From positions 1 through 41,013 of the forward strand of contig JAJPJN010000029.1 in assembly GCA_021324185.1 (NCBI GenBank): a DNA stretch of 41,013 nt. Direction: 5' to 3'. Of this stretch, positions 1,700 to 20,623 are shown in pieces (within the stretch, counting starts at the first letter, position 1; every line of letters begins with the position of its first letter). The notes below the pieces were generated by a model that was given only the letters and a program-made list of their open reading frames with translations, made no database searches and was not told the DNA's origin. The position numbers and the translations under genes were made by a program. Source of the stretch: Terriglobia bacterium (GTDB taxonomy: Bacteria; Acidobacteriota; Terriglobia; Bryobacterales; Bryobacteraceae).

Positions 1700-3877
1700 G
1701 TGCAAAACATGAGAACAGACGCGTGGGGTTGGGCGCAGCGGGCCGCGTTAGCCGCTATCGTTGCGCTTTGCAGTTTCGTAATCGCTTGTCCTGAGCAGAA
1801 TGGGCCGGCCGCAAAGTACCCGAATCCACAGGTGCGGTTTGCGAGTTATACGCAGACCTGCGACGGCATTCCCGGCAACCTGCCTAACCATTTTGGATAT
1901 TATCTATCTCCCGATCAGTTAGCGGGCGCTTGCACCTGGTACTTGTGGGTGGGCGGCGACCCGCTGCGAAAAACGGGAAGTCCGGTCAATGCGCGCGGTA
2001 ACCCGCGCTTCTGGCGCATGGCTGAAAAGAAGCTGGAAAACCTGATTCATGGTTTCGAGCTGCCCATTAACGTCAGCATGCTGAAATACGTGACCAGCAC
2101 GCCGCGTAACCAGCGCTTCGCCAAACTGGGCGTCATAAACGATCCGGGATGCAAAGCGGCGGCAAAACCGGATCCATACGGCTTGATGCTGGACGACTGC
2201 TCGGATCCTTATTCGAGCGGCATCATGGGCATCCGGCTGTTTCCGAATCCCGACTTCAAACCGGCGCAGTGGGATGCGAATAAGTTTCTAAATGTGGATT
2301 CTACGATCGAGCCGCCGTATCTTGCCGGGCTAACCTGCGGCGTTTGCCACATCTCATTTAATCCGGCCAAGCCTCCGGCAGATCCTGAAAATCCGCAATG
2401 GGAAAATCTCGCTCCGGCCATCGGCAATCAATACTTACGCGAAGGAGAGATGTTCAAAGGTGGCATATCGGACAGCTCCTTCCTGTATTGGATATTTCAG
2501 ACGCAGCAGCCGGGAACGTCGGATACGAGCCGCATCAACACGGACTTCATTAACAATCCGAACGCCATTAATTCCATTTGGTACATTCTTTCGGCCCGGC
2601 CTACACACGCTGAAGTAATGAACGATGGCACGACGAAACAGGTGCCGCATATTTTGAAGGACGGCTCGGATTCTATTGGCGCAGCGGGCGCCGGCTTGCG
2701 TGTGTACATCAATATCGGAAGCTGCCCCGATTACCGCTACAGTCTGGACTATACGTTTCTCGGGATTCCGAATACTGCCGAACCGTTGCTGCCTCCGGTC
2801 TCAAAGACAACGGCGCAGCGGCCGTTTGAAATTGCCAAGGCGGAAAAGGACTGCGTCGACTGGCAGCTCACGAATGCGCGCATCGATAAGGCGGCGAGTT
2901 TTCTGGATGCCAATCAGCCTTACCATCTGAAAGACGCGCCGGGAGGTAGCGGCTATCTTACAACGGATCAAGCTGTGTTGGATCTCGGCAAAACTACGTT
3001 CGCAGAGAACTGCGCGCGCTGCCATTCGAGTAAGTTGCCGCCGGAAGTGGCGCAAGGCGGTTTGAACAAGCATTCTGCGCAAGCAAAAGCAGCCTGGGTG
3101 AAGCTGGTGAAATCGCCCGATTTTCTGGACAAGAATTTTCTGTCGGACGATGAGCGGTATCCGCTGGTTTCGAAAGACCCGCGCATGGCGATTGGAACGA
3201 ATGCCGACCGCGCCGTGGGCAGCAATCCCCAGGCGAATCACATCTGGAACGACTTTTCTTCGAAGACGTTCAAGCAGCTACCGCCGCCCGGGAATATGAT
3301 TCTGCAGAACCCGTTCGCACCGGGCGAGACGATCACGTTTCCCATTCGCTACGGCGGATATTACCGGACGCCGTCACTTATTAACTGTTGGGCGACTGCT
3401 CCGTTTCTGCACAACAACATGCTGGGGTTATTTAATGGCGATCCATCGGTGGCAGGCCGCATTGCTGCGTTCAACGATGCAGCAGAGAAACTTTTGTGGC
3501 CCGAAAAGCGGGTGGGAAAGGCGACGATCAAAGTTACCGGCAAGGATTCGACCATCAAAATACGCGATATCGAGATCCATCTTCCGGCGGGGACGCCGAT
3601 TGATCTGCTGGCGAACATTAATCTTTACGCGGCGCTTCAGCCGGAACAGGTGGTGCAGACACTGCATCAGTTTGCGGATCATCCGGACCTGCTTGTGAGG
3701 CTTGTTCACGCGCTGAATAATCAGGGGCCGTATGACCAGGACTTACGAGCGTTCCTGCCGCTTCTGCTGGCGCAGAATCAATCGCCCGATTTCATTCAGG
3801 ATCACGGGCACACGTTCGGTTCTGATTTGCCGGACGATCAGAAGCACGCGCTGATTGAGTACATGAAGACGTTCTAG
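1700..3877 (+). CDS. Diheme cytochrome c lipoprotein, RoxA/cytochrome-peroxidase-like
   Basis: A 725-residue protein from a GTG start; an ATG three codons later (1709) is equally possible. The hydrophobic N-terminus ends in a lipobox (VIAC, lipid Cys at residue 30), so it should be an exported lipoprotein. Two c-type heme sites are visible: CGVCH at residue 213 and CARCH at residue 438, about 225 residues apart. That wide spacing is shared with its two paralogues downstream and is the layout of the rubber oxygenase RoxA and related 'diheme cytochrome c peroxidase' proteins. After the second heme comes a PFLHN motif (H571, a candidate axial ligand), and the protein ends in the same LPDDQK...EYMKTF tail as its neighbours. 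It is first in an operon with an ene-reductase 15 bases downstream. Electron carrier, peroxidase or oxygenase roles are all possible. It is the most divergent of the three. Confidence 0.85.
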   Translation: MQNMRTDAWGWAQRAALAAIVALCSFVIACPEQNGPAAKYPNPQVRFASYTQTCDGIPGNLPNHFGYYLSPDQLAGACTWYLWVGGDPLRKTGSPVNARGNPRFWRMAEKKLENLIHGFELPINVSMLKYVTSTPRNQRFAKLGVINDPGCKAAAKPDPYGLMLDDCSDPYSSGIMGIRLFPNPDFKPAQWDANKFLNVDSTIEPPYLAGLTCGVCHISFNPAKPPADPENPQWENLAPAIGNQYLREGEMFKGGISDSSFLYWIFQTQQPGTSDTSRINTDFINNPNAINSIWYILSARPTHAEVMNDGTTKQVPHILKDGSDSIGAAGAGLRVYINIGSCPDYRYSLDYTFLGIPNTAEPLLPPVSKTTAQRPFEIAKAEKDCVDWQLTNARIDKAASFLDANQPYHLKDAPGGSGYLTTDQAVLDLGKTTFAENCARCHSSKLPPEVAQGGLNKHSAQAKAAWVKLVKSPDFLDKNFLSDDERYPLVSKDPRMAIGTNADRAVGSNPQANHIWNDFSSKTFKQLPPPGNMILQNPFAPGETITFPIRYGGYYRTPSLINCWATAPFLHNNMLGLFNGDPSVAGRIAAFNDAAEKLLWPEKRVGKATIKVTGKDSTIKIRDIEIHLPAGTPIDLLANINLYAALQPEQVVQTLHQFADHPDLLVRLVHALNNQGPYDQDLRAFLPLLLAQNQSPDFIQDHGHTFGSDLPDDQKHALIEYMKTF

Positions 3878-3892
3878 CGAGGGCGGGCCCAG

Positions 3893-5260
3893 GTGGATAA
3901 CGACGTCATTTTTCAGCCGCTGAAGTTCCGCAATCTGACGGTGAAGAACCGGCTGTTCCGGTCAAATATTTCGGGGCGGTTCGATAACTATGACGGGTCG
4001 GGGACGCAGGCGCGTATTAACTGGGAAGAATCGTTCGCGCGCGGCGGCGTAGGCGCAATTATTTCGTCGTTTGTTCCGGTACACATTCGGGGGCGCATCC
4101 TTCCGAATTACGCCATGATCGACAGCGATGACAAGATTCCGTTCTGGCGCGCTGTGGGCGAAGCAGTGCACCGGCACGACTGCAAATACATTTTGCAACT
4201 GAGCCACTCCGGGCGCCAGCGCGATAACCCGGGAATCGAAAATTTCCGCGAGAAAGCTCTTTCGTCCACGAACCGGATGGATACGTTTCATGGGCTGCTC
4301 TGCGAGGCTATGACGCTGCAGCAGATCAAAGAAACGATCCAGCATTTCGCCGATGGGGCGCGCAGAGCGAGGGAGGCCGGACTGGATGGGGTTGAATTAC
4401 ACGCCTCCCATGGTTACCTGATTACGCAGTTTCTGAGTTCCGCCATTAACGACAGGAAAGACCAGTACGGCGGCGCGCTGCGGAATCGGGCTGCATTTCT
4501 GATCGAGATTATTCAGGCGATTCGAAAGGAAGCAGGCAGCGATTACCACTTACAGGCGAAATTGAATGCGGTGGATTTCGGTAATGCGCTGTATCCGTGG
4601 GAGCACAAAGGGAACACGCTCGAAGAAGGAATTCAGATAGCCAGGTGGGCTGAAGACGCGGGCGTGGACGCCATTCATGTCTCCATCGGCAGCATGTTCC
4701 CGCATCCGTTGCTGCCGCCCGGAGGCTTTCCGCCGGATGAACTGAACTGGTGGTACGGAAATATGATTTCGAGCGGCGTGCTCGGCTATTTCAACTACAC
4801 GATGTTTCACTTCAAGATTCTGCGGCCCATCTTCACATTCTTTTGGGCGCGGACGAAGAAGGATCATCCGGTTGAGGCGGTCAGCTCCGAATACTCGAAG
4901 GAAGTGAGGAAGAATGTCGGGGTTCCGATCATCAATACGGGCGGCTATCAGGATGGCCGGGTGATCCGGCGCGTGATTTCAGAAGGCTACACGGACGCGG
5001 TCTCGATTGCGCGGCCGCTTATCGCGAATCGCGACTTGCCGCAGATTCTTGCTTCCGGCAAGAACCTACCTGAAAGGCCGTGCTCCTTTTGTAACCGGTG
5101 TTTAGTGAATGCGGTTGCGAATCCGCTGGGCTGTTACGACGTGCGGCGGTTTGATGGCGATCACGATGCGATGGTCGCGAAGATTCTGGAGGTCTACCAT
5201 CCATCGCAGTTTTCAAATGCACCCGAGTTGGCGCCGCTTGGTTCCGCAATGAGGAGCTGA
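3893..5260 (+). CDS. Old yellow enzyme-type NADH:flavin oxidoreductase (FMN, probable Fe-S)
   Basis: A 455-residue (beta/alpha)8-barrel ene-reductase. Visible family motifs are QLSHSGRQ (FMN contacts), the substrate pair H170/H173 in HASHGYL, the NDRKDQYGG stretch with NR following, and the phosphate-binding RPLIANRDLP near the C-terminus. A cysteine set C397, C400, C403 and C414 matches the 4Fe-4S site of the 2,4-dienoyl-CoA reductase branch with slightly tighter spacing. That branch normally has about 650 residues including FAD and NAD(P) domains; these are absent here, so electrons must come from a partner. There is no signal peptide, so it is cytoplasmic. The GTG start at 3893 follows GAGG about 11 bases upstream. 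It lies 15 bases after one diheme cytochrome gene and 4 bases before the next, which implies one transcript. The substrate, probably an unsaturated carbonyl compound, is unknown. Confidence 0.88.
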   Translation: MDNDVIFQPLKFRNLTVKNRLFRSNISGRFDNYDGSGTQARINWEESFARGGVGAIISSFVPVHIRGRILPNYAMIDSDDKIPFWRAVGEAVHRHDCKYILQLSHSGRQRDNPGIENFREKALSSTNRMDTFHGLLCEAMTLQQIKETIQHFADGARRAREAGLDGVELHASHGYLITQFLSSAINDRKDQYGGALRNRAAFLIEIIQAIRKEAGSDYHLQAKLNAVDFGNALYPWEHKGNTLEEGIQIARWAEDAGVDAIHVSIGSMFPHPLLPPGGFPPDELNWWYGNMISSGVLGYFNYTMFHFKILRPIFTFFWARTKKDHPVEAVSSEYSKEVRKNVGVPIINTGGYQDGRVIRRVISEGYTDAVSIARPLIANRDLPQILASGKNLPERPCSFCNRCLVNAVANPLGCYDVRRFDGDHDAMVAKILEVYHPSQFSNAPELAPLGSAMRS

Positions 5261-5264
5261 TGTA

Positions 5265-6803
5265 ATGCGCGACGAGATGGTGATCAAGACCGCCGAGGGA
5301 AAGCTTGTCGATAACATCTATTCGAGCCCGGTCGATGAATGGCAGCACCGGGTGCGGGCGCTGGCTCTGCTCTTTATTGTGGGCGTGCTGGCGATACTCG
5401 CCATCTATCTGATCTGGTACTTTACGCACGATTCGACGCGCGAGTACTCCGATATTCAAGAGCATTTCAAATACGGCTCCATCGGCAGCGAGACTGGTGG
5501 AAGCATTTTCACGCCGGTGGGCGGCGTTCTGCCTCCGTATCTGGTGTTCAAGACGCTGCCGAAGGTGTGCCCGGACAAGCTTCCGGGTGGGTATGCGTCG
5601 CTCGGGCTGGTGTTTGAGCCGAATCACGATATGCCGGTTGGCGTCTCGCGGCGCTGGCGTCTGGGTGTCGAGCAGGTTGGATTGAATTGCGCTGTTTGTC
5701 ATACGGGCACGGTGCGAGAGACGCCGGGCAGCCAGCCGATGATTGTGCCCGGAATGCCTGCGCATCAATTACGGCTGGAGCAGTTTTTTCAGTTTGTGCT
5801 TTCCTGCAGCCTGGACGAGCGCCTGACCGCGGGCAATGTGATCGCGAAAGCTGAAGAAATGGGCGAGCACGTCAGCCTGATGCAAAAGTTGCTGCTGTAT
5901 ACGGCGCTGATCCAGCGATTGAAGCTGCAAACGTTGAATCTGCAGAACCGCATGGGCTATGCATTTAACGGCCCGCTGCCGCAGTGGGGGCCAGGCCGGG
6001 TGGACACCTTCAATCCATACAAAGCGCTGCAATTCAACTGGGACCTGACGCGCCTGCCGCGTGATGAGCTGATTGGCGCCGCTGATTTTCCCTCGCTTTG
6101 GAATCAGAAGCCGCGAGAAGGCATGCATCTGCACTGGGACGGCAACAATACTTCTGTCGATGAGCGCAATTTGAGCGCTTCACTGGGCGCAGGGGTCACG
6201 CCCGTGACGGTAGATCACGCAAGTCTGCAACGTATTCATGATTGGATCTGGACGCTGCCGCCGCCGAAATACCCGTTTGCGATTGATGAGGCGAGGAGCG
6301 CGCGCGGCAAAGCGATTTTTGCCCAGCAGTGCGCCGAGTGCCACAGCTTTTCAGGCAGCAAGACAGGAACGGTGGAACACCTGGCTTCCGTCAATACAGA
6401 TCCTTACCGGCTGAATTCCTATACGTATATCTTTTCCGTCAACCAGGCGACTCTGTATCCGAATAGCCGGTACCGCTTTACTCATTTCGTCAAGACCGAC
6501 GGGTACGCGAATCAGCCGCTGGATGGCATTTGGGCGCGTGCTCCGTATCTGCACAATGGTTCGGTTCCGACATTGCTTGATTTGCTTGCGGACCCGGCGA
6601 ATCGTCCCAAACAGTTCATCCGGGGTTATGACGTCTACGATCAGCAGCGCGCCGGGTTCGTCTACGACACGCCCGAAGCGCGGGCCGGCGGTTTTTTGTA
6701 TGACACGACGATTCCAGGAAACGGCAACGGCGGCCACCTGTGGGGCACCAGGCTTCCGGACGATCAGAAGCGCGATTTGGTCGAGTACATGAAGACCCTG
6801 TAG
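5265..6803 (+). CDS. Membrane-anchored diheme cytochrome c, RoxA/cytochrome-peroxidase-like
   Basis: A 512-residue protein with a short cytoplasmic N-terminus, one transmembrane anchor (about residues 31-53) and a large periplasmic part. Heme motifs are CAVCH at residue 142 and CAECH at residue 356 (214 apart). Conserved with the next gene are YGSIG near residue 70, PDKLPGGY, the LHWDGNNTS motif between the hemes, and APYLHNGSVPTL (H430, candidate axial ligand) after the second heme. The C-terminal NGNGGHLWGT and LPDDQK...EYMKTL are also shared. The start ATG lies 4 bases after the ene-reductase stop and is preceded by GAGGAGCT. Related proteins are annotated as diheme cytochrome c peroxidases, and the RoxA rubber oxygenases belong to the same broad group. 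The reaction cannot be decided from sequence. Confidence 0.87.
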   Translation: MRDEMVIKTAEGKLVDNIYSSPVDEWQHRVRALALLFIVGVLAILAIYLIWYFTHDSTREYSDIQEHFKYGSIGSETGGSIFTPVGGVLPPYLVFKTLPKVCPDKLPGGYASLGLVFEPNHDMPVGVSRRWRLGVEQVGLNCAVCHTGTVRETPGSQPMIVPGMPAHQLRLEQFFQFVLSCSLDERLTAGNVIAKAEEMGEHVSLMQKLLLYTALIQRLKLQTLNLQNRMGYAFNGPLPQWGPGRVDTFNPYKALQFNWDLTRLPRDELIGAADFPSLWNQKPREGMHLHWDGNNTSVDERNLSASLGAGVTPVTVDHASLQRIHDWIWTLPPPKYPFAIDEARSARGKAIFAQQCAECHSFSGSKTGTVEHLASVNTDPYRLNSYTYIFSVNQATLYPNSRYRFTHFVKTDGYANQPLDGIWARAPYLHNGSVPTLLDLLADPANRPKQFIRGYDVYDQQRAGFVYDTPEARAGGFLYDTTIPGNGNGGHLWGTRLPDDQKRDLVEYMKTL

Positions 6804-6817
6804 TTTGCGGCAACTTT

Positions 6818-8713
6818 ATGAATGACTACGCAAAGTGGTTCGGCCGGGTGGTGTGGTTGGGAATTATTGCCAACTTCGCGCTGGCGCTGCCGACGTTGTT
6901 TTTGCCCGATCAGATGCTGGCGCTGTATTCGCTGCCTTCGGCATCGCCATCGATGTGGCCGAGTTTTGCGGCGCTGCTGCTGATCCTGCTAAGTCTCTTC
7001 TATATTCCGGCGGCAAAAAGGCCGCTCTATTATCCGCTCGTTTCGTGGTTGACGGTACTGGCGCGCCTGGCAGGCGTTGTCTTTTTCTGCATCTTTAATC
7101 GCGAGTATTTCTTTTTTGGATTGTTCGATGGCATGTTCTTTGTGCCCGAGTGCATACTGCTGGCCCTCGCTACTGCAGAAGCCAAGAAAACAATTCATGG
7201 CGGCGCAGCCGGGCGGACGATTGCCGAAGCAACCCTGGGCGAAGGCGCGCCGCAAGGGGGCGGCAAATGGAAGATGCGGCTGGTGGCGATTGCGATTATT
7301 GCCGTTTCCGCAGGCGCCTTCCTGACCTGGTACGAATTTTTCCGAAGCGTGCCGCCGCCGTACTTCGCTTCCGACGAAGAGCATTTCATGTATGGCTCTA
7401 TCGGGACGGAAGGGAGCGCCGGAGTGCCGTACTGGATCTGGCTGGTGCTGCCGCGCATTTTTCCCGACAAGCTGCCGCAGCCGGGAGGCTATGAATCGCT
7501 CGGGATCGTTGCTCAGGAAGGGCGCGAGCTGCCGGTTGGTTTCTCGAAGCAAACGATCGGCATTGAGCGAGTAGGCATTAACTGCGCCTTCTGCCACACA
7601 GCGACTTATCGCGTGCATGCGGACGATAAGCCCGTGATTGTTCCCACTGCGCCAAGCCATACGACCAGCCCGCAGGACTATCTGCGCTTTCTGTTTGCGT
7701 GCGCGGCGGATCCGCGCTTCAATTCGTCGACGATTATGGCGGAGATCGCCAAAAACTATCGTCTGTCGCTGATTGACAGCCTGACTTACCGCTTTATACT
7801 CATTCCGTTTACTAAGATCACGTTGCTGCGGCAGCAGAATGAATATCAGCAATACGGCTGGATGAAAAAGAATCCGCCGTGGGGCTATGGGCGCATCGAT
7901 CCGTTTAATCCGGTCAAATATCGGATTTTGAATCAGCCCGTTGACGGAAGCATCGGCAACTCAGACATGGCGCCGTTGTGGAACTTAGGAGCGCACCAAG
8001 GCTTTTCCTTCCATTGGGATGGCTTGAATACCAGCCTTCAGGAAGTTGTGATCTCTTCCGCCATTGGCGACGGCACGCCGCCTGAGTGGGTGGACAAAGA
8101 CTGGAAGAAGTCCGACACGCAATCGAGTTTAAAGCGCGTGATGAATTACATCAGCCGTGTGCAGCCACCGAAGTTTCCGTTTCCGGTGGACGCTGCGCTA
8201 GCCGCCAGAGGACAGGTTCTGTATAAGCAGCAATGCGCGGAATGCCATGAGATTGGCGGCGCGCGCACCGGCCGCGTCGAGCCGATTGATAATCCCATGC
8301 TGCAGACGGACCGGCACCGGATTGATATGTGGACGCAGAATTCTGCTACGGCTTACAACAATTACGGCGCCGGCCATTTCTGGCGACTTACTCATTTTGT
8401 AAAGCAGAACGGCTATGTCAATGTGCCGCTCGAAGGGCTATGGTTGCGGGGGCCGTACTTACACAACGGTTCTGTCCCGACGTTGGCGGATCTGCTCTCT
8501 GAACCTGCCGCGCGCCCGAAGCTGTTTTATCGAGGGTATGACGTTCTGGACCCGGACAGAGTGGGTTTCGTATGGCAAGGCGCGGAAGCCGAGCGAGTCG
8601 GCTTCCGGTACGATACCAGCGTGCCCGGTAACGGGAACGGCGGCCATTTGTGGGGCACAACACTCAGCGCCGCGGATAAACGAGCCATGCTCGAATATCT
8701 AAAGACGCTCTAA
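6818..8713 (+). CDS. Multi-pass membrane domain fused to a diheme cytochrome c
   Basis: The frame is open from 6740, inside the preceding gene, but the ATG at 6818 just past that gene's stop is the likely start, giving 631 residues. Residues 10-145 form about four hydrophobic helices with a short FFFGLFDGMFF segment. A fifth helix (about 180-200) then leads into a periplasmic diheme cytochrome closely resembling the preceding gene product. CAFCH is at residue 256 and CAECH at residue 473 (217 apart), with FHWDGLNTS between them, GPYLHNGSVPTL (H549) after them, and the NGNGGHLWGT tail. The N-terminal domain is not one I recognise; it could bind a quinone or lipid substrate or serve only as an anchor. 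It is last in the four-gene operon and ends 5 bases before the convergent DUF2235 gene. Confidence 0.85.
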   Translation: MNDYAKWFGRVVWLGIIANFALALPTLFLPDQMLALYSLPSASPSMWPSFAALLLILLSLFYIPAAKRPLYYPLVSWLTVLARLAGVVFFCIFNREYFFFGLFDGMFFVPECILLALATAEAKKTIHGGAAGRTIAEATLGEGAPQGGGKWKMRLVAIAIIAVSAGAFLTWYEFFRSVPPPYFASDEEHFMYGSIGTEGSAGVPYWIWLVLPRIFPDKLPQPGGYESLGIVAQEGRELPVGFSKQTIGIERVGINCAFCHTATYRVHADDKPVIVPTAPSHTTSPQDYLRFLFACAADPRFNSSTIMAEIAKNYRLSLIDSLTYRFILIPFTKITLLRQQNEYQQYGWMKKNPPWGYGRIDPFNPVKYRILNQPVDGSIGNSDMAPLWNLGAHQGFSFHWDGLNTSLQEVVISSAIGDGTPPEWVDKDWKKSDTQSSLKRVMNYISRVQPPKFPFPVDAALAARGQVLYKQQCAECHEIGGARTGRVEPIDNPMLQTDRHRIDMWTQNSATAYNNYGAGHFWRLTHFVKQNGYVNVPLEGLWLRGPYLHNGSVPTLADLLSEPAARPKLFYRGYDVLDPDRVGFVWQGAEAERVGFRYDTSVPGNGNGGHLWGTTLSAADKRAMLEYLKTL

Positions 8714-8718
8714 AGGCG

Positions 8719-9807
8719 TTAGTGGCCGGTTCCCGCGCCGGCTTGTCCTGCCGCGCCCGCTGCCGCAACGGCCGGCTGGCTGCAGACACTCACAATTTTG
8801 TAAGTGGAGGCCAGTTTTCCGTTTTCGAAGGATAGATTTTTCGGGCGCCAGTTCGCCTCTTCTTCGCAGCGAATCAGCACGCTGTTGGCGATGGATGAAG
8901 TGGGATCGACATGCCGCCTGATGGGAAAGCCGCAAAAGATTTTCCAGGATTCGTGAAATACGTCGAGCGCGTACTCGGGGCTGACCGGGCAGTCATATTG
9001 CGCTTTGACGGCCGGATCGAAAACGAGTCCTAAACCGCTGCCCTTGGCCATCATCCAGGAAAGCGTGATATCCGACAGCGCGGTGGTTGCCGGCCCATCG
9101 CTGGGTTCGCCGCCGCCTACATCGCTGTGCGCGCCCGTGAACCAGACTTGCTCCAGAACCTGAGTGGGTCCCGCAGGGCCGCTCCAAAGAGTGGGCGGAA
9201 ACTGCGCCCGACGTTCGTCGAGGGCCAGCGCATGATAGCCGTGCTTGATTTTCGGGTTGAGACTGGTATCGAGAAAGCCGTAGGCAATGGGATCGATCTG
9301 GCCGATGGCGGATGGAACGCCGAGCGAGCCGACGGTGTCCCAGACGCCCACCATCTCGATACTCGGGTTGGGCTCCATCTTGCAATTGGCGAGCTGTTGC
9401 AGTTTTTGACGGCGAAGATCGGTGTTGCCGGCGCGGTAGGCATCAAAAGCGATGTCCACCATGTTGTCGCTGAAGTTCGCGGTCGGCAGACCTGCCGCAG
9501 CAATCATGCCCGCCAGGCTGCGCGCCGTATATGCGCCGCGGCTGAAACCAAAAAGATAAACCGAATCACCAGATTCGTAAAGATGGGCGATCTTTGAGTA
9601 GCCGTCTTTGATCTTTTGCCATAGCCCGGTTCCGAATGCTCCCCCAATAAGCCTCGTAATCGGGTCACCGTTTGCACCTACGCCGTCGTCATACAGCGGA
9701 ATTTGATCCGCGCTGACAGCTAAGGCTTTGTATAACTTGTACACGTTGGTGTGCGAAGTGGCAGAATCCCACGTTCCATCAGCACAAAAGGCGATTCGCT
9801 TAGGCAT
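8719..9807 (-). CDS. DUF2235 (Tle1-like) alpha/beta hydrolase
   Basis: A 362-residue protein opening with the DUF2235 signature (AFCADGTWD), then the nucleophile elbow GFSRGAYTAR with Ser89 and a later GAHSDVGGGEP motif that supplies acid/His positions. The family includes type VI secretion phospholipases of the Tle1 type and many housekeeping or peroxisome-type esterase-like proteins of unknown substrate. There is no signal peptide and no secretion genes nearby, so effector status is not supported. The ATG at 9807 has a strong ribosome binding site (AGGAGGGG, 9 bases away). It converges on the diheme cytochrome operon with a 5-base gap. The C-terminus is Ala/Gly-rich. Confidence 0.87.
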   Translation of the reverse strand: MPKRIAFCADGTWDSATSHTNVYKLYKALAVSADQIPLYDDGVGANGDPITRLIGGAFGTGLWQKIKDGYSKIAHLYESGDSVYLFGFSRGAYTARSLAGMIAAAGLPTANFSDNMVDIAFDAYRAGNTDLRRQKLQQLANCKMEPNPSIEMVGVWDTVGSLGVPSAIGQIDPIAYGFLDTSLNPKIKHGYHALALDERRAQFPPTLWSGPAGPTQVLEQVWFTGAHSDVGGGEPSDGPATTALSDITLSWMMAKGSGLGLVFDPAVKAQYDCPVSPEYALDVFHESWKIFCGFPIRRHVDPTSSIANSVLIRCEEEANWRPKNLSFENGKLASTYKIVSVCSQPAVAAAGAAGQAGAGTGH

Positions 9808-17498: not shown

Positions 17499-18428
17499 AT
17501 GAATAGTTCAGTCGCAGTGTCCGTTCAGGATCTGCACAAATCGTATGGCGATTTCGAAGCCGTGCGGGGCATAGATCTGGAGATCGGCATCGGCGAAGTT
17601 TTTGGCCTTTTGGGCCCGAACGGCGCCGGCAAGACCACCACGATTGAAATTCTGGAGGGCTTGCGCCCGCGCACCAGCGGCAAGGTTTCGGTGCTCGGCT
17701 TCGATCCGGCTCTGCAGTCGCGCGAAATCAAGAATCGCATCGGCGTCTGCCTGCAAGCCACCAATTTGCCGGACAAGATCAAAGTGCACGAAGCGCTGGA
17801 GCTTTTTGACGCCTTCTACGACCGTCACACAGATTTGAACAAGCTGCTGGAACGGCTGCAGCTTTCAGAAAAGCGGGATGCGCTGTATAAATCCCTTTCA
17901 GGAGGCCAGAAGCAGCGCGTTGCGCTGGCACTGGCGCTGGTGAACGAGCCGAGTCTTCTATTCCTTGACGAGCCGACCACAGGGCTCGATCCGCAAGTGC
18001 GGCATGAGATCCATAACCTGATTCAGGAACTGCGGGCCGATCATCGCTCCATTCTGATTACGACTCACTACATCGAAGAGGCGGAGCGCCTTTGCGATCG
18101 CGTTGCCATTATTGATGCCGGCAAAATCATCGAACTGGGCAGCCCGCGCGAGATCCAGCAGCGCGTGCTTGGGCACACGCTGGTGGAGGTGGTGACCAAT
18201 GAGCCGATGCAGCTCGATCTTCTGCCTGAAAAGTTGCGCGCCGAAAAGCATTCGATGAATGGCGATGGGCGCACGTTATCCATGCAGACCGAAGAGCCCG
18301 CGGCATTGATTGTGGAGCTGGTGAAATGGATCGATCAGCAAGGCTTGCGACTGGTGGATATCCACATGAAACGGCCGACTCTGGAAGATGTGTTTATTGA
18401 ACTGACGGGAAAGAAGTTGCGCGAATGA
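17499..18428 (+). CDS. ABC-2 type exporter ATP-binding protein
   Basis: A 309-residue nucleotide-binding subunit. Walker A is GPNGAGKT at residues 39-46, the signature is LSGGQKQR, Walker B is LLFLDEPTTGLD, and the switch His is in ITTHY. About 90 extra residues follow the ATPase core (from about 215), as in DrrA/CcmA-type exporters. It powers the permease half of the next gene, whose ATG overlaps its TGA by 4 bases (ATGA), so the two are translationally coupled. The substrate is unknown. Confidence 0.93.
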   Translation: MNSSVAVSVQDLHKSYGDFEAVRGIDLEIGIGEVFGLLGPNGAGKTTTIEILEGLRPRTSGKVSVLGFDPALQSREIKNRIGVCLQATNLPDKIKVHEALELFDAFYDRHTDLNKLLERLQLSEKRDALYKSLSGGQKQRVALALALVNEPSLLFLDEPTTGLDPQVRHEIHNLIQELRADHRSILITTHYIEEAERLCDRVAIIDAGKIIELGSPREIQQRVLGHTLVEVVTNEPMQLDLLPEKLRAEKHSMNGDGRTLSMQTEEPAALIVELVKWIDQQGLRLVDIHMKRPTLEDVFIELTGKKLRE

Positions 18429-20623
18429 GACCGTATCTTGTCCAAATACGCACCACGTTGCGATTGATGCTGCGCGACCGGTCGGTGCTGTTCTTTAGCT
18501 ATCTGTTTCCGCTTTCGTTCTTTTTCATTTTTGCCCAGACCTTTGATGCCGGAAAAAGCCCGGCGGCCATGGCCCAGGTTATCGCCATGGTGGTGATGAT
18601 CGGCGTGCTCGGCAATGGATTTTTTGGCGCGGGCATGCGCACCGTGCTGGACCGCGAGACGAATGTTTTGCGGCGCTTCAAAGTGGCTCCCATTAATGCG
18701 GCGCCGATCATCACGTCGTCGATAGTTTCCGGACTGGCGGCATTTCTGCCCACCGTTTTCCTGTTCCTCTTTTTCGGCAGCGTGATGTATCACGCTCCTC
18801 TGCCGCGTGATCTGATCTCGTTTCTGGTGTTCGTCTGTATCGGAGTGATCGCGTTCCGGTCGTTCGGGATGATCATTGCGGCGGTTGTGAATTCCCAACA
18901 GGAAGCACAGATTCTGATACAGCTTCTGTATCTCCCCATGCTGTTTTTGAGCGGCGCTACCTTCCCCATCAGCATCATGCCGGTTTGGGTTCAGAATATT
19001 GCCCAGTTCTTACCGGCGACGTATCTTTTTCAAGGAATGCAGTCCATCATGATCGGCGGTGAGAGCATCGGCGCCAATTGGTTCGCTGTGTTCGCGCTTC
19101 TGATTACTTTTGCGGTCGCCATGTTCGTCGGCATCAAACTTTTCCGCTGGGAGAAGGAAGAAAAGATCTCCAACCGCGCCAAGCTGTGGATTGTAGCTGT
19201 TCTCGCCCCGTTTTTCATCATGGGCATCTATCAGGCGAAGACGCAGCAGAACAACGAACGCGCCCGCGTTCTCACGCGCAATGCCATCCGCAATCGCGCC
19301 ACGCTGTTCAATAACGCAAGAATATTCGTGGGCGACGGAAGAATGATTCAGAACGGGGCCGTTCTTGTCCGTAACGGCAAAATCGCGGAAGTGTTTCAGA
19401 CTCCGCCGGCCGACCCCAAATCGCTCAATGCGGATATTGTCGAAAGCTCCGGCAAGACTATCATTCCGGGCCTTATCGACATGCATGTCCACCTCGGGGC
19501 GCCGGGCGGCGTTTACGAAGATGAGAAGCGGTACATGGACCCATACGCGGGCGACAAACGGCTCGCGTCTTATTTATATAGCGGAATTACTGCCGTTCGC
19601 AGCACGGGCGATTTTCTCGATTCCTCGCTGAAGCTTCGCAATGATATTAACTCGGGGAAATATCTAGGCGCGCAGTTATTCGCCTGCGGGCCTCTGTTCA
19701 CAGCCGAAGGCGGCCACCCGACCGAGCTAATCAAGAATTTCCCGCAATCCATGCAGAAGGAAGCGTACGAACAGTTCGTGCGGCTGCCCAAATCGCCGGA
19801 CGAGGCGCGCAAACAGGTGGATGATTTGAAGATCGCCGGCGTCGATTGCGTCAAAGCCGTTCTAGAATCGGGCAACGCCGCCTGGGGTCTGTTCAATCAC
19901 CTGGACCCTGCAATCTATAGCGCTGTTATTTCGGAAGCCGCCAAAGATAATTTACCGAGCGCTACCCACACGGGCAATGCATCCGACGTGAAAGAGGCGG
20001 CCGACGCTGGTTCGAACAGCATTGAGCACGGCTCGGCCATCGATCGCATAGCGGAATCCACATTCGCGGAGATGAAGGCAAAGAATCTTGCGTATGATCC
20101 GACGCTTAGCGTCTTTGAAGGAATGGCCGACCTGGCGGCGGGCAATACGGAATTGCTGGACCGCTCGCTTCTGCAGCAGGCCGCGCCGGCAGATCTGATT
20201 TCTTCCACCCGCGCCTTCGTGCAGAAGCAAAAAAAGAATCCGAACCCGGTGTTTGCGCCGATGCTCGAACACGCGCGCCAAAACCTGTTGGCGGCTTACA
20301 AGGCGGGGCTCATGCTGATTACAGGAAGCGATGCCGGAAATATGCTGGTTATCCATGGCCCGACGGTGCAGCATGAAATGGAGCTGTGGGTGAAGGCGGG
20401 CATTCCTGCGGCCATTGCGCTGGAAGCGGCGACGTACAATGCGGCGCAGGTGCTTCGCGCCGCCGATCGCATCGGCTCGATTCAGAAAGGCCGCGATGCC
20501 ACACTGGTTGTCCTCGACGGCGACCCGCTGCAGGATATTGCGAACACGGAACGCATCTCGCAGGTGATGTTCCGCGGCGAACGCATCGACCGATCCGAGC
20601 TGTTTGAACAGGAACATCCATAA
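18425..20623 (+). CDS. ABC-2 permease fused to a complete metal-dependent amidohydrolase
   Basis: A 732-residue fusion. Residues 1-250 form a full ABC-2 permease: a basic N-terminus, about six helices, and the typical LSGATFPI...FLPATYLFQGMQSI region. Residues 252-272 form a further helix resembling a former signal anchor. From about 290 to the end lies an imidazolonepropionase/prolidase-like amidohydrolase with its whole metal site: H354 and H356 (DMHVHLG), a candidate carboxylated lysine K477, H515, H535 (IEHGSA) and D636 (GSDAGN). The C-terminus has the usual GSIQKGRDATLVVLDGDPL strand. With an odd number of helices the enzyme should face the periplasm, as do the signal-peptide-bearing relatives. 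The frame is continuous with no internal stop or compositional break. A hydrolase tied to an exporter suggests a substrate processed outside as it is exported, or simply two genes merged. Confidence 0.88.
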   Translation: MRPYLVQIRTTLRLMLRDRSVLFFSYLFPLSFFFIFAQTFDAGKSPAAMAQVIAMVVMIGVLGNGFFGAGMRTVLDRETNVLRRFKVAPINAAPIITSSIVSGLAAFLPTVFLFLFFGSVMYHAPLPRDLISFLVFVCIGVIAFRSFGMIIAAVVNSQQEAQILIQLLYLPMLFLSGATFPISIMPVWVQNIAQFLPATYLFQGMQSIMIGGESIGANWFAVFALLITFAVAMFVGIKLFRWEKEEKISNRAKLWIVAVLAPFFIMGIYQAKTQQNNERARVLTRNAIRNRATLFNNARIFVGDGRMIQNGAVLVRNGKIAEVFQTPPADPKSLNADIVESSGKTIIPGLIDMHVHLGAPGGVYEDEKRYMDPYAGDKRLASYLYSGITAVRSTGDFLDSSLKLRNDINSGKYLGAQLFACGPLFTAEGGHPTELIKNFPQSMQKEAYEQFVRLPKSPDEARKQVDDLKIAGVDCVKAVLESGNAAWGLFNHLDPAIYSAVISEAAKDNLPSATHTGNASDVKEAADAGSNSIEHGSAIDRIAESTFAEMKAKNLAYDPTLSVFEGMADLAAGNTELLDRSLLQQAAPADLISSTRAFVQKQKKNPNPVFAPMLEHARQNLLAAYKAGLMLITGSDAGNMLVIHGPTVQHEMELWVKAGIPAAIALEAATYNAAQVLRAADRIGSIQKGRDATLVVLDGDPLQDIANTERISQVMFRGERIDRSELFEQEHP

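Follow-up and report, generated by a model that had tools for sequence, protein, structure and literature searches.

The contig JAJPJN010000029.1 of the Terriglobia bacterium assembly GCA_021324185.1 (Acidobacteriota; Bryobacteraceae), analysed here in its whole length of 41,013 bases and referred to as the window, carries four consecutive genes that encode a large diheme c-type protein (cyt1), an ene-reductase of the Old yellow enzyme family (OYE) and two further diheme proteins (cyt2 and cyt3). The OYE belongs to one subfamily that pairs either with cyt2 or with a fatty-acid alpha-dioxygenase, and modelling gives cyt2 the fold of the rubber oxygenase RoxA. Together the four genes may form a module for lipid or fatty-acid oxygenation at the membrane face, oxylipin-like in character, with enone or enal reduction in the cytosol; this reading is offered tentatively, its chances being close to even.

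The computed gene partnership was surveyed across genomes. At least 584 pattern matches and at least 570 relatives were found, of which the best 80 loci, leaning towards the query, were kept; many of these end at contig borders, and their contents were established by tblastn on the fetched stretches. Genes with internal stops (cyt3 of L079 and L120, cyt1 of L079 and the OYE of L061) were dropped before counting. The figures that follow are counts of loci and not of independent genomes, because L128 and L129 both come, as separate contigs, from a single metagenome-assembled genome (MAG), and L062 and G269 denote one and the same contig. Both cyt2 and cyt3 were present in 61 of the best 80 loci, a cyt1/cytC homologue in 53, an OYE in 26, a GMC oxidoreductase in 13 and an animal-type heme peroxidase in five. 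In all 26 loci that have it, the OYE gene immediately precedes cyt2 in the same orientation, at a distance of 5-531 nt by match ends. The hosts of these OYE loci are Acidobacteriota, Cyanobacteria (Nostoc, Fortiea), Alphaproteobacteria, Gammaproteobacteria (Halomonas, Franzmannia, Aquisalimonas), a Myxococcota-type MAG (L112) and an unplaced proteobacterial MAG (L123), and since the order recurs across phyla the arrangement is not due to chance. Among named relatives, the nearest is L060, a Bryobacterales MAG with the full cyt1-OYE-cyt2-cyt3 order at 70-86% identity, and the next (L061) has OYE-cyt2-cyt3 without cyt1. Rhizobial plasmids carry OYE-cyt2-small membrane protein-cyt3-cytC-GMC-patatin, an order that Rhizobium johnstonii 3841 has at RL_RS32270 to RL_RS32240; the N-terminal domain of cyt3 is a separate gene of about 140 codons in rhizobia, Nostoc and some other acidobacteria, and that of the window matches the small membrane protein of Nostoc (blastp, 6.6e-25).

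The association was also observed in genomes that had not been chosen by the query. In a sample of 396 genomes from the phylum, which counts in that of the window, a cyt1/cytC relative was found in 19 (E<=1e-20), the cyt2/3 family in 13 (E<=1e-60) and the OYE subfamily in eight (E<=1e-100). Six of the eight OYE genomes also have a cyt2/3 protein (hypergeometric P 9e-9); the figure becomes 5/7 with the window's own genome excluded (P 2e-7), and 3/5 when three congeners are in addition counted once (P 1e-4). The two genes are adjacent in five of the eight. In G054 an alpha-dioxygenase, the OYE and a DUF2235 gene are consecutive on one strand, with cyt2 on another contig, and in G259 an alpha-dioxygenase lies 1.1 kb from the OYE in convergent orientation. 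A second sample comprised 111 cyanobacterial genomes of the class of one Nostoc, including this central genome, which was chosen because it bears the OYE. The OYE was found in three and an alpha-dioxygenase in four of them (P 1e-3, for co-occurrence alone), and in both OYE genomes besides the central one the alpha-dioxygenase is close by, 1.0 kb away on the same strand in one and 1.4 kb away and divergent in the other.

Bacterial alpha-dioxygenases that act on fatty acids have been described (PMC8720084). The OYE adjoins an alpha-dioxygenase in Acidobacteria, Cyanobacteria and Halomonadaceae, and in Franzmannia (L120), Halomonas (L086) and Nostoc (L070) both stand on one strand with cyt2. The Franzmannia and Nostoc peroxidases are near full-length matches to plant alpha-dioxygenase (4kvj; E 1.4e-111 and 7.5e-123), and those of L086, L039, L117, L181 and L183 are 44-86% identical to them. 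Fatty-acid alpha-dioxygenases (4kvj, 4hhr; cyanobacterial CalDOX and LepDOX, PMC8720084) have the same OYE partner in other genomes and belong to a different protein family (PF03098) from cyt2 and cyt3. Lipase-type genes were likewise found at related loci, namely DUF2235, patatin, the lipase-like c12 (five cyanobacterial loci) and the GMC-hydrolase c6 (12 loci). These neighbours of the OYE subfamily in other genomes, alpha-dioxygenases on the one hand and genes of lipase type on the other, suggest that a hydrophobic substrate may be oxidised in the case of the window too. The first-pass annotation had proposed oxidative cleavage or peroxide chemistry on a hydrophobic unsaturated substrate; the hydrophobic substrate is given wider grounds by these neighbours, whereas rubber-type cleavage is not upheld by the pocket residues and family cut-offs given below.

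Several observations were made on these partner genes. A 986-aa ORF near cyt2 in L075 (5371-8331) encodes an animal-type heme peroxidase that is just 29% identical to the alpha-dioxygenases. A protein of about 302 aa (c28) is encoded between the genes for alpha-dioxygenase and OYE in Halomonadaceae (L086 4038-4946, L120 7640-8548) and also beside the peroxidase in Qingshengfaniella. A GMC domain (cholesterol-oxidase-like, below cut-off) fused to an alpha/beta hydrolase precedes a cyt2/3-family protein and a metallophosphoesterase-like gene in L132 (5946-12695) and other Pseudomonas loci of this kind.

The two downstream cytochromes, cyt2 and cyt3, are paralogues. Both match PF21419 and pass the 150-bit cut-off of NF040606 ('di-heme-cytochrome C peroxidase') with 193.9 and 176.1 bits, respectively; this label is a family name given by resemblance, and the peroxidase function that it implies is putative. 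Homologues were aligned in sets of 76 and 68 rows, and in a tree of 75 rows 12 cyt3 rows, plus one unlabelled L112 row, fall on one side of a well-supported branch (100/99). The cyt2 model, built on the 68-row alignment, has a predicted local distance difference test score (pLDDT) of 90.0 and a predicted template modelling score (pTM) of 0.88. Compared with the PDB, its sole match at E<=0.001 was RoxA of Steroidobacter cummioxidans (4b2n; 9e-12), with Z 19.3 over 369 residues at 3.4 A, followed by hydrazine synthase (5c2v chain C; Z 11.9), MauG (about 11) and CcpA-type peroxidases (about 8-10). A comparison with the RoxA and MauG/CcpA folds had been called for, and for cyt2 it favours RoxA; the modelled cyt2 has the RoxA fold, which cyt3 probably shares by homology.

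The likeness to RoxA covers the entire cytochrome part of cyt2 and its wide heme spacing, and extends to the heme ligands. The axial histidines of RoxA (H195, H394 and H641, the last in the GGH tail) and its MauG motif (PYFH517NGS, in general form PYxHNGS) are matched in cyt2 by H146, H360, H491 and H430, all four of which are invariant (76/76 rows). By comparison with RoxA, the first heme of cyt2 and cyt3 would be bound by one histidine and the second by two. The equivalent of W302 is kept as W291 (Trp in 73/76 rows), while F301 is replaced by H290 (His in 71/76 rows) and F317 by L307 in cyt2 and by Ile in cyt3; across 68 rows the latter position is L in 27, F in 25, I in 12 and M in four. 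RoxA numbering was taken from a RoxC-like protein aligned to 4b2n together with PMC10837239 and PMC4496055. The heme-pocket comparison that had been proposed is thus mixed in outcome, the tryptophan and axial ligands being retained and both phenylalanines lost. The cyt2 pocket appears to be a RoxA frame with a distal histidine, unlike that of RoxA itself (Phe/Phe) or of an oleate-diol-synthase pair (Gln).

Cleavage of rubber or isoprenoid chains, as performed by RoxA and RoxB, would accord with the fold and the retained W302 equivalent, but identity to RoxA is just 17-23% in structural alignments, and RoxA proteins with a changed F317 retain little or no activity (PMC6797691). The RoxA, RoxB and RoxC models of NCBIfam gave 56-72 bits for cyt2, 59-77 for cyt3 and 16-20 for cyt1 with cut-offs of 900-1000, so that all three cytochromes miss them more than tenfold; cyt2 and cyt3 further differ from RoxA and RoxB in their predicted membrane anchors and recurrent OYE partner. 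Membership of the rubber oxygenases was rejected on the missed cut-offs and the F301 and F317 replacements, and with His at the former and Leu or Ile at the latter, rubber cleavage is very unlikely.

A functional precedent for the lipid reading may be found by analogy in Pseudomonas aeruginosa, where the RoxA-related diheme enzymes 10S-DOX and 7,10-DS act on oleate as periplasmic oxygenases (PMC4496055, PMC5155153), and a review proposes lipid oxidation for the RoxC group (PMC10837239). This FadCcp pair (PA2077, the 10S-DOX, and PA2078, the 7,10-diol synthase) resembles cyt2/cyt3 in that two RoxA-related diheme proteins, encoded in tandem, face the periplasm and carry the same heme and MauG motifs, but has Gln at the F301 position and is separated by a deep branch; the 10-kb stretch around the L170 pair gave no OYE match. 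The L170 pair was taken as orthologous to PA2077/PA2078 because its genes stand in tandem, its proteins have 634 and 624 aa and its motifs are placed as PMC4496055 gives them; in its 634-aa member the heme motifs read differently from Table 1 of that paper, and the MauG-motif His of the 624-aa member is off by one.

The second gene was confirmed as an ene-reductase of the FMN/Fe-S type, its Fe-S cluster being putative. The protein matches PF00724 (E 9.7e-59, 199.8 bits), and H170 and Y175, at the catalytic His/Tyr positions of OYE enzymes, are invariant in an alignment of 26 rows (the window and 25 of 27 candidates, L038 and L128 being left out). A C-x2-C-x2-C-x10-C motif, the putative Fe-S ligand set, is likewise present in 26/26 rows. 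The closest solved relative is 2,4-dienoyl-CoA reductase (1ps9; E 1e-38), which shares the FMN barrel family, the catalytic His/Tyr positions and a Cys-rich motif after the barrel, but with its cysteines spaced x2-x3-x11 and not x2-x2-x10. It also has a C-terminal FAD/NADPH domain, which the window OYE lacks (455 aa vs 671, the second matched stretch stopping at query residue 406). The BaiCD and bilirubin reductase models match as well, but below cut-off. A hydrophobic and aromatic stretch of about 47 residues is added in the OYE (67 residues between matched blocks vs 20 in 1ps9) and is present in 25 of the 26 rows, L065 being the exception; by this stretch the enzyme is perhaps docked to the membrane.

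The first cytochrome differs from the other two. All three had been described as RoxA-type, which holds for cyt2 and cyt3 but not for cyt1: it has no PF21419 match and scores 37.6 bits on NF040606, and profile comparison links it to cyt2 in the second-heme domain only (probability 98.4). Its model (pLDDT 82.3) had no PDB match at E<=0.001 (MauG, 4.5e-3), and hydrazine synthase, MauG and RoxA practically tie (Z 11.6, 10.7 and 10.6), so the structure comparison is not specific to RoxA here. A RoxA-type cyt1 was ruled out on these profile scores and non-specific structural matches; the protein is a member of the wider diheme-peroxidase superfamily. It is related to the large cytC proteins that accompany GMC oxidoreductases, and among 50 aligned cyt1/cytC rows the MauG-motif His is kept in 28, including the window (H571), and replaced in 22 (18 Leu, two Ser, two Gln). 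A GMC gene occurs in the fetched stretch, not always adjacent, of every His-less row but L091, which reaches a contig end, and every other row without a GMC gene keeps the His; L046 and L047 keep it despite an adjoining GMC gene. The cytC of L037 (12453-15224) and its relatives exemplify the His-less form at GMC loci. This distribution suggests that the GMC-linked cytC proteins turned into electron carriers and that cyt1 kept a catalytic-type site.

Two further explanations turn on the same observations. The cytochromes might form an electron-transfer chain from a periplasmic dehydrogenase, such as the GMC protein of many loci, to the respiratory chain, with the OYE as a passenger. The frequent sharing of a locus by cyt1-type cytC and GMC, then mostly with loss of the MauG-motif His, would be in keeping with this, but the retained His of cyt1, the single-His first heme site of cyt2 and cyt3 and the full-length RoxA fold of cyt2 speak against it, and no GMC was found among the ten proteins scanned around the cluster; the explanation is accordingly improbable. 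A MauG-like maturation role, in which a diheme protein oxidises residues of a partner such as a GMC or quinoprotein dehydrogenase, draws on the near-tie of cyt1 with MauG and on the GMC partner of its relatives. It is very doubtful, given that no such dehydrogenase was encountered in the same scan and that cyt2 is clearly nearer to RoxA.

The favoured oxygenation module could operate as follows; its substrate, chemistry, direction, electron flow and product are inferred from the partnerships above. Lipase-type neighbours would release the acyl substrate. At the outer face of the inner membrane, the first heme of cyt2 and cyt3, with the distal His that is absent in RoxA, would serve to activate O2 or a hydroperoxide, and the two proteins would oxidise an unsaturated acyl chain or its hydroperoxide, while cyt1 could carry electrons or handle peroxide. 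OYEs reduce enals, and the OYE would reduce the resulting enal or enone in the cytosol, perhaps docked to the membrane by its added stretch.

The main rival, because of the distal His, is a peroxidase role. In such a periplasmic peroxide defence, the diheme proteins, acting as cytochrome c peroxidases, would reduce H2O2 or lipid hydroperoxides formed by other systems, and cytosolic enals arising from lipid peroxidation would be cleared by the OYE. The fold of cyt2 is closest to RoxA rather than to CcpA-type enzymes, and the retention of two paralogues and cyt1 together with lipase-type or GMC partners would better fit a pathway. Peroxide defence is nonetheless favoured by the NF040606 cut-off passed by cyt2 and cyt3; a hydroperoxide-consuming partner would suit the alpha-dioxygenase neighbourhood, and RoxA is reported to lack acid-base catalysts (PMC6797691). 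On balance it is unlikely, though to be taken seriously.

A number of findings weigh against the oxygenation module. The widely conserved H290 would suit peroxidase chemistry too. Of the best 80 loci, 54 gave no OYE in the stretch that was fetched, and many beta-, gammaproteobacterial and Nitrospira loci read cyt1-c4-c2-cyt2-cyt3 with no OYE detected (c2 in 29 loci, c4 in 23). Conservation of the gene order, on which the idea of a system had been made to depend, therefore stands for the 26 OYE-cyt2 loci of several phyla and not for an obligatory OYE, and since c4 and c2 take its place in those loci, the cyt1/cyt2/cyt3 core has several partners, the OYE among them. At one OYE locus in an acidobacterium (G379), neither cyt2 nor an alpha-dioxygenase was seen within 17 kb; the cyanobacterial centre has OYE and cyt2 with no alpha-dioxygenase match, and two of the four alpha-dioxygenase genomes in that sample have no OYE match. 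No heme-peroxidase match was obtained in the window's own genome, a weak result because no control genome matched either. Hydropathy gives no transmembrane (TM) segment for the OYE, its docking being suggested by alignment and composition. In the tree, the diol-synthase pair of L170 does not form one clade with cyt2/cyt3: it groups with three other Pseudomonas rows, split off by a branch of 2.09 (100/100), because of which the diol-synthase substrate is not simply transferable to cyt2 and cyt3. Two RoxC-like rows, used as no RoxA above cut-off was found among 369 genomes of one class, join the cyt2 side through a branch of 3.28 at a weak fork (92/72), which makes their placement unsure. No characterised enzyme of the cyt2/cyt3 family was found.

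As to the alternative partners, c2 (L096:7775-9937) is a 720-aa protein with two CxxCH motifs and c4 (L083:6892-7896) has about 330 aa, both genes lying between cyt1 and cyt2. Pfam and NCBIfam gave zero matches for c2, c4, c10 and c28.

It is conceivable, although on present evidence rather doubtful, that a bacterial oxylipin-like pathway extends across phyla, in which membrane-anchored RoxA-fold proteins with a distal His, in place of alpha-dioxygenase or beside it, are the oxygenases paired with a membrane-docking Fe-S ene-reductase; lipase, dioxygenase and ene-reductase would then make up a bacterial counterpart of the plant sequence from dioxygenase to OPR. Each protein belongs to a known superfamily; the titles and abstract openings of open-licence literature gave no account of such a pathway or of a partnership of cyt2/cyt3 with OYE and alpha-dioxygenase. 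Few bacterial lipid oxygenases have been characterised. The oxygenation module, if real, would amount to a testable pathway that turns membrane lipids into oxidised signals or nutrients, with its genes found in Acidobacteria, Cyanobacteria, Alpha- and Gammaproteobacteria and one Myxococcota-type MAG. It would also supply a diheme site, built on the RoxA frame with a distal His, that is intermediate between those of rubber oxygenases and peroxidases, and would open to testing the function of an NCBIfam family named by resemblance only.

The window is one whole contig of a 4.7 Mb assembly of 184 contigs (96.85% complete). As the first-pass annotation had stated, the four genes are co-oriented on the + strand (1700-8713) with gaps of 15, 4 and 14 nt; the last gap holds because the cyt3 start is taken at 6818, the first Met past the cyt2 stop, and not at 6740 where the ORF opens. 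It was also correct on the CxxCH pairs, placed 214-225 residues apart and measured at 225 (cyt1), 214 (cyt2) and 217 (cyt3), on the common C-terminal tail (EY-M/L-KT-L/F) and on three different membrane attachments, for which hydropathy predicts a lipoprotein-like cyt1 (a single hydrophobic stretch with a lipobox-like FVIAC at its end), a single-TM cyt2 (helix 22-54 in the model) and a multi-pass cyt3 (about four TM and a fifth ahead of the cytochrome part). The features are listed in Table 1.

Table 1. Features of the cyt1-OYE-cyt2-cyt3 cluster and its convergent neighbour in the window.
Feature	Position	Strand	Description	Basis
cyt1	1700..3877	+	725-aa diheme c-type protein, lipoprotein-like signal	ORF, profiles, hydropathy
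cyt1 first heme motif	2336..2350	+	CGVCH, residues 213-217	
cyt1 second heme motif	3011..3025	+	CARCH, residues 438-442	
OYE	3893..5260	+	OYE-family ene-reductase (PF00724), 455 aa, without TM or signal by hydropathy	
OYE added stretch	4730..4882	+	Hydrophobic/aromatic, limits approximate	Alignment
OYE Cys motif	5081..5134	+	C397, C400, C403, C414, putative Fe-S ligands	Alignment
cyt2	5265..6803	+	512-aa diheme protein, RoxA fold in model, one predicted N-terminal TM (NF040606, PF21419)	
cyt2 first heme motif	5688..5702	+	CAVCH, residues 142-146, proximal His of presumed active heme	
cyt2 distal-site motif	6132..6143	+	H290-W291-D292-G293, aligned with RoxA F301-W302-D303-G304	
cyt2 second heme motif	6330..6344	+	CAECH, residues 356-360	
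cyt2 MauG motif	6543..6560	+	PYLHNG (H430)	
cyt3	6818..8713	+	631 aa, multi-pass membrane domain fused to cyt2-homologous diheme part (NF040606, PF21419)	
cyt3 N-terminal domain	6818..7192	+	About four predicted TM	Hydropathy
cyt3 first heme motif	7583..7597	+	CAFCH (282 in 6740 frame)	
cyt3 second heme motif	8234..8248	+	CAECH (499 in 6740 frame)	
DUF2235 gene	8719..9807	-	DUF2235/Tle1-like hydrolase (PF09994), convergent neighbour	

Homologues of the neighbouring DUF2235 gene are also present at related loci (S. fredii, G269, L064 and G054). All five pieces of the window's own genome that match NF040606 at E<=0.001 lie inside the window. A DsbA/thioredoxin-like protein with a Cys-rich N-terminal stretch is encoded upstream of cyt1 on the same strand (589-1485). 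It was considered as a part of the module, but a tblastn homologue was found at two acidobacterial loci only (L052 and L053; 31-32%) and none beside the closest relatives of the cluster. In Rhizobium johnstonii TP5 (L038 10838-12312) the cyt3 homologue is annotated as two adjacent coding sequences, while in strain 3841 (L180) it is one gene. Further along the window (18425-20623), a single ORF, as read by eye, joins an ABC-2-type permease to a following amidohydrolase-like domain, an odd fusion.

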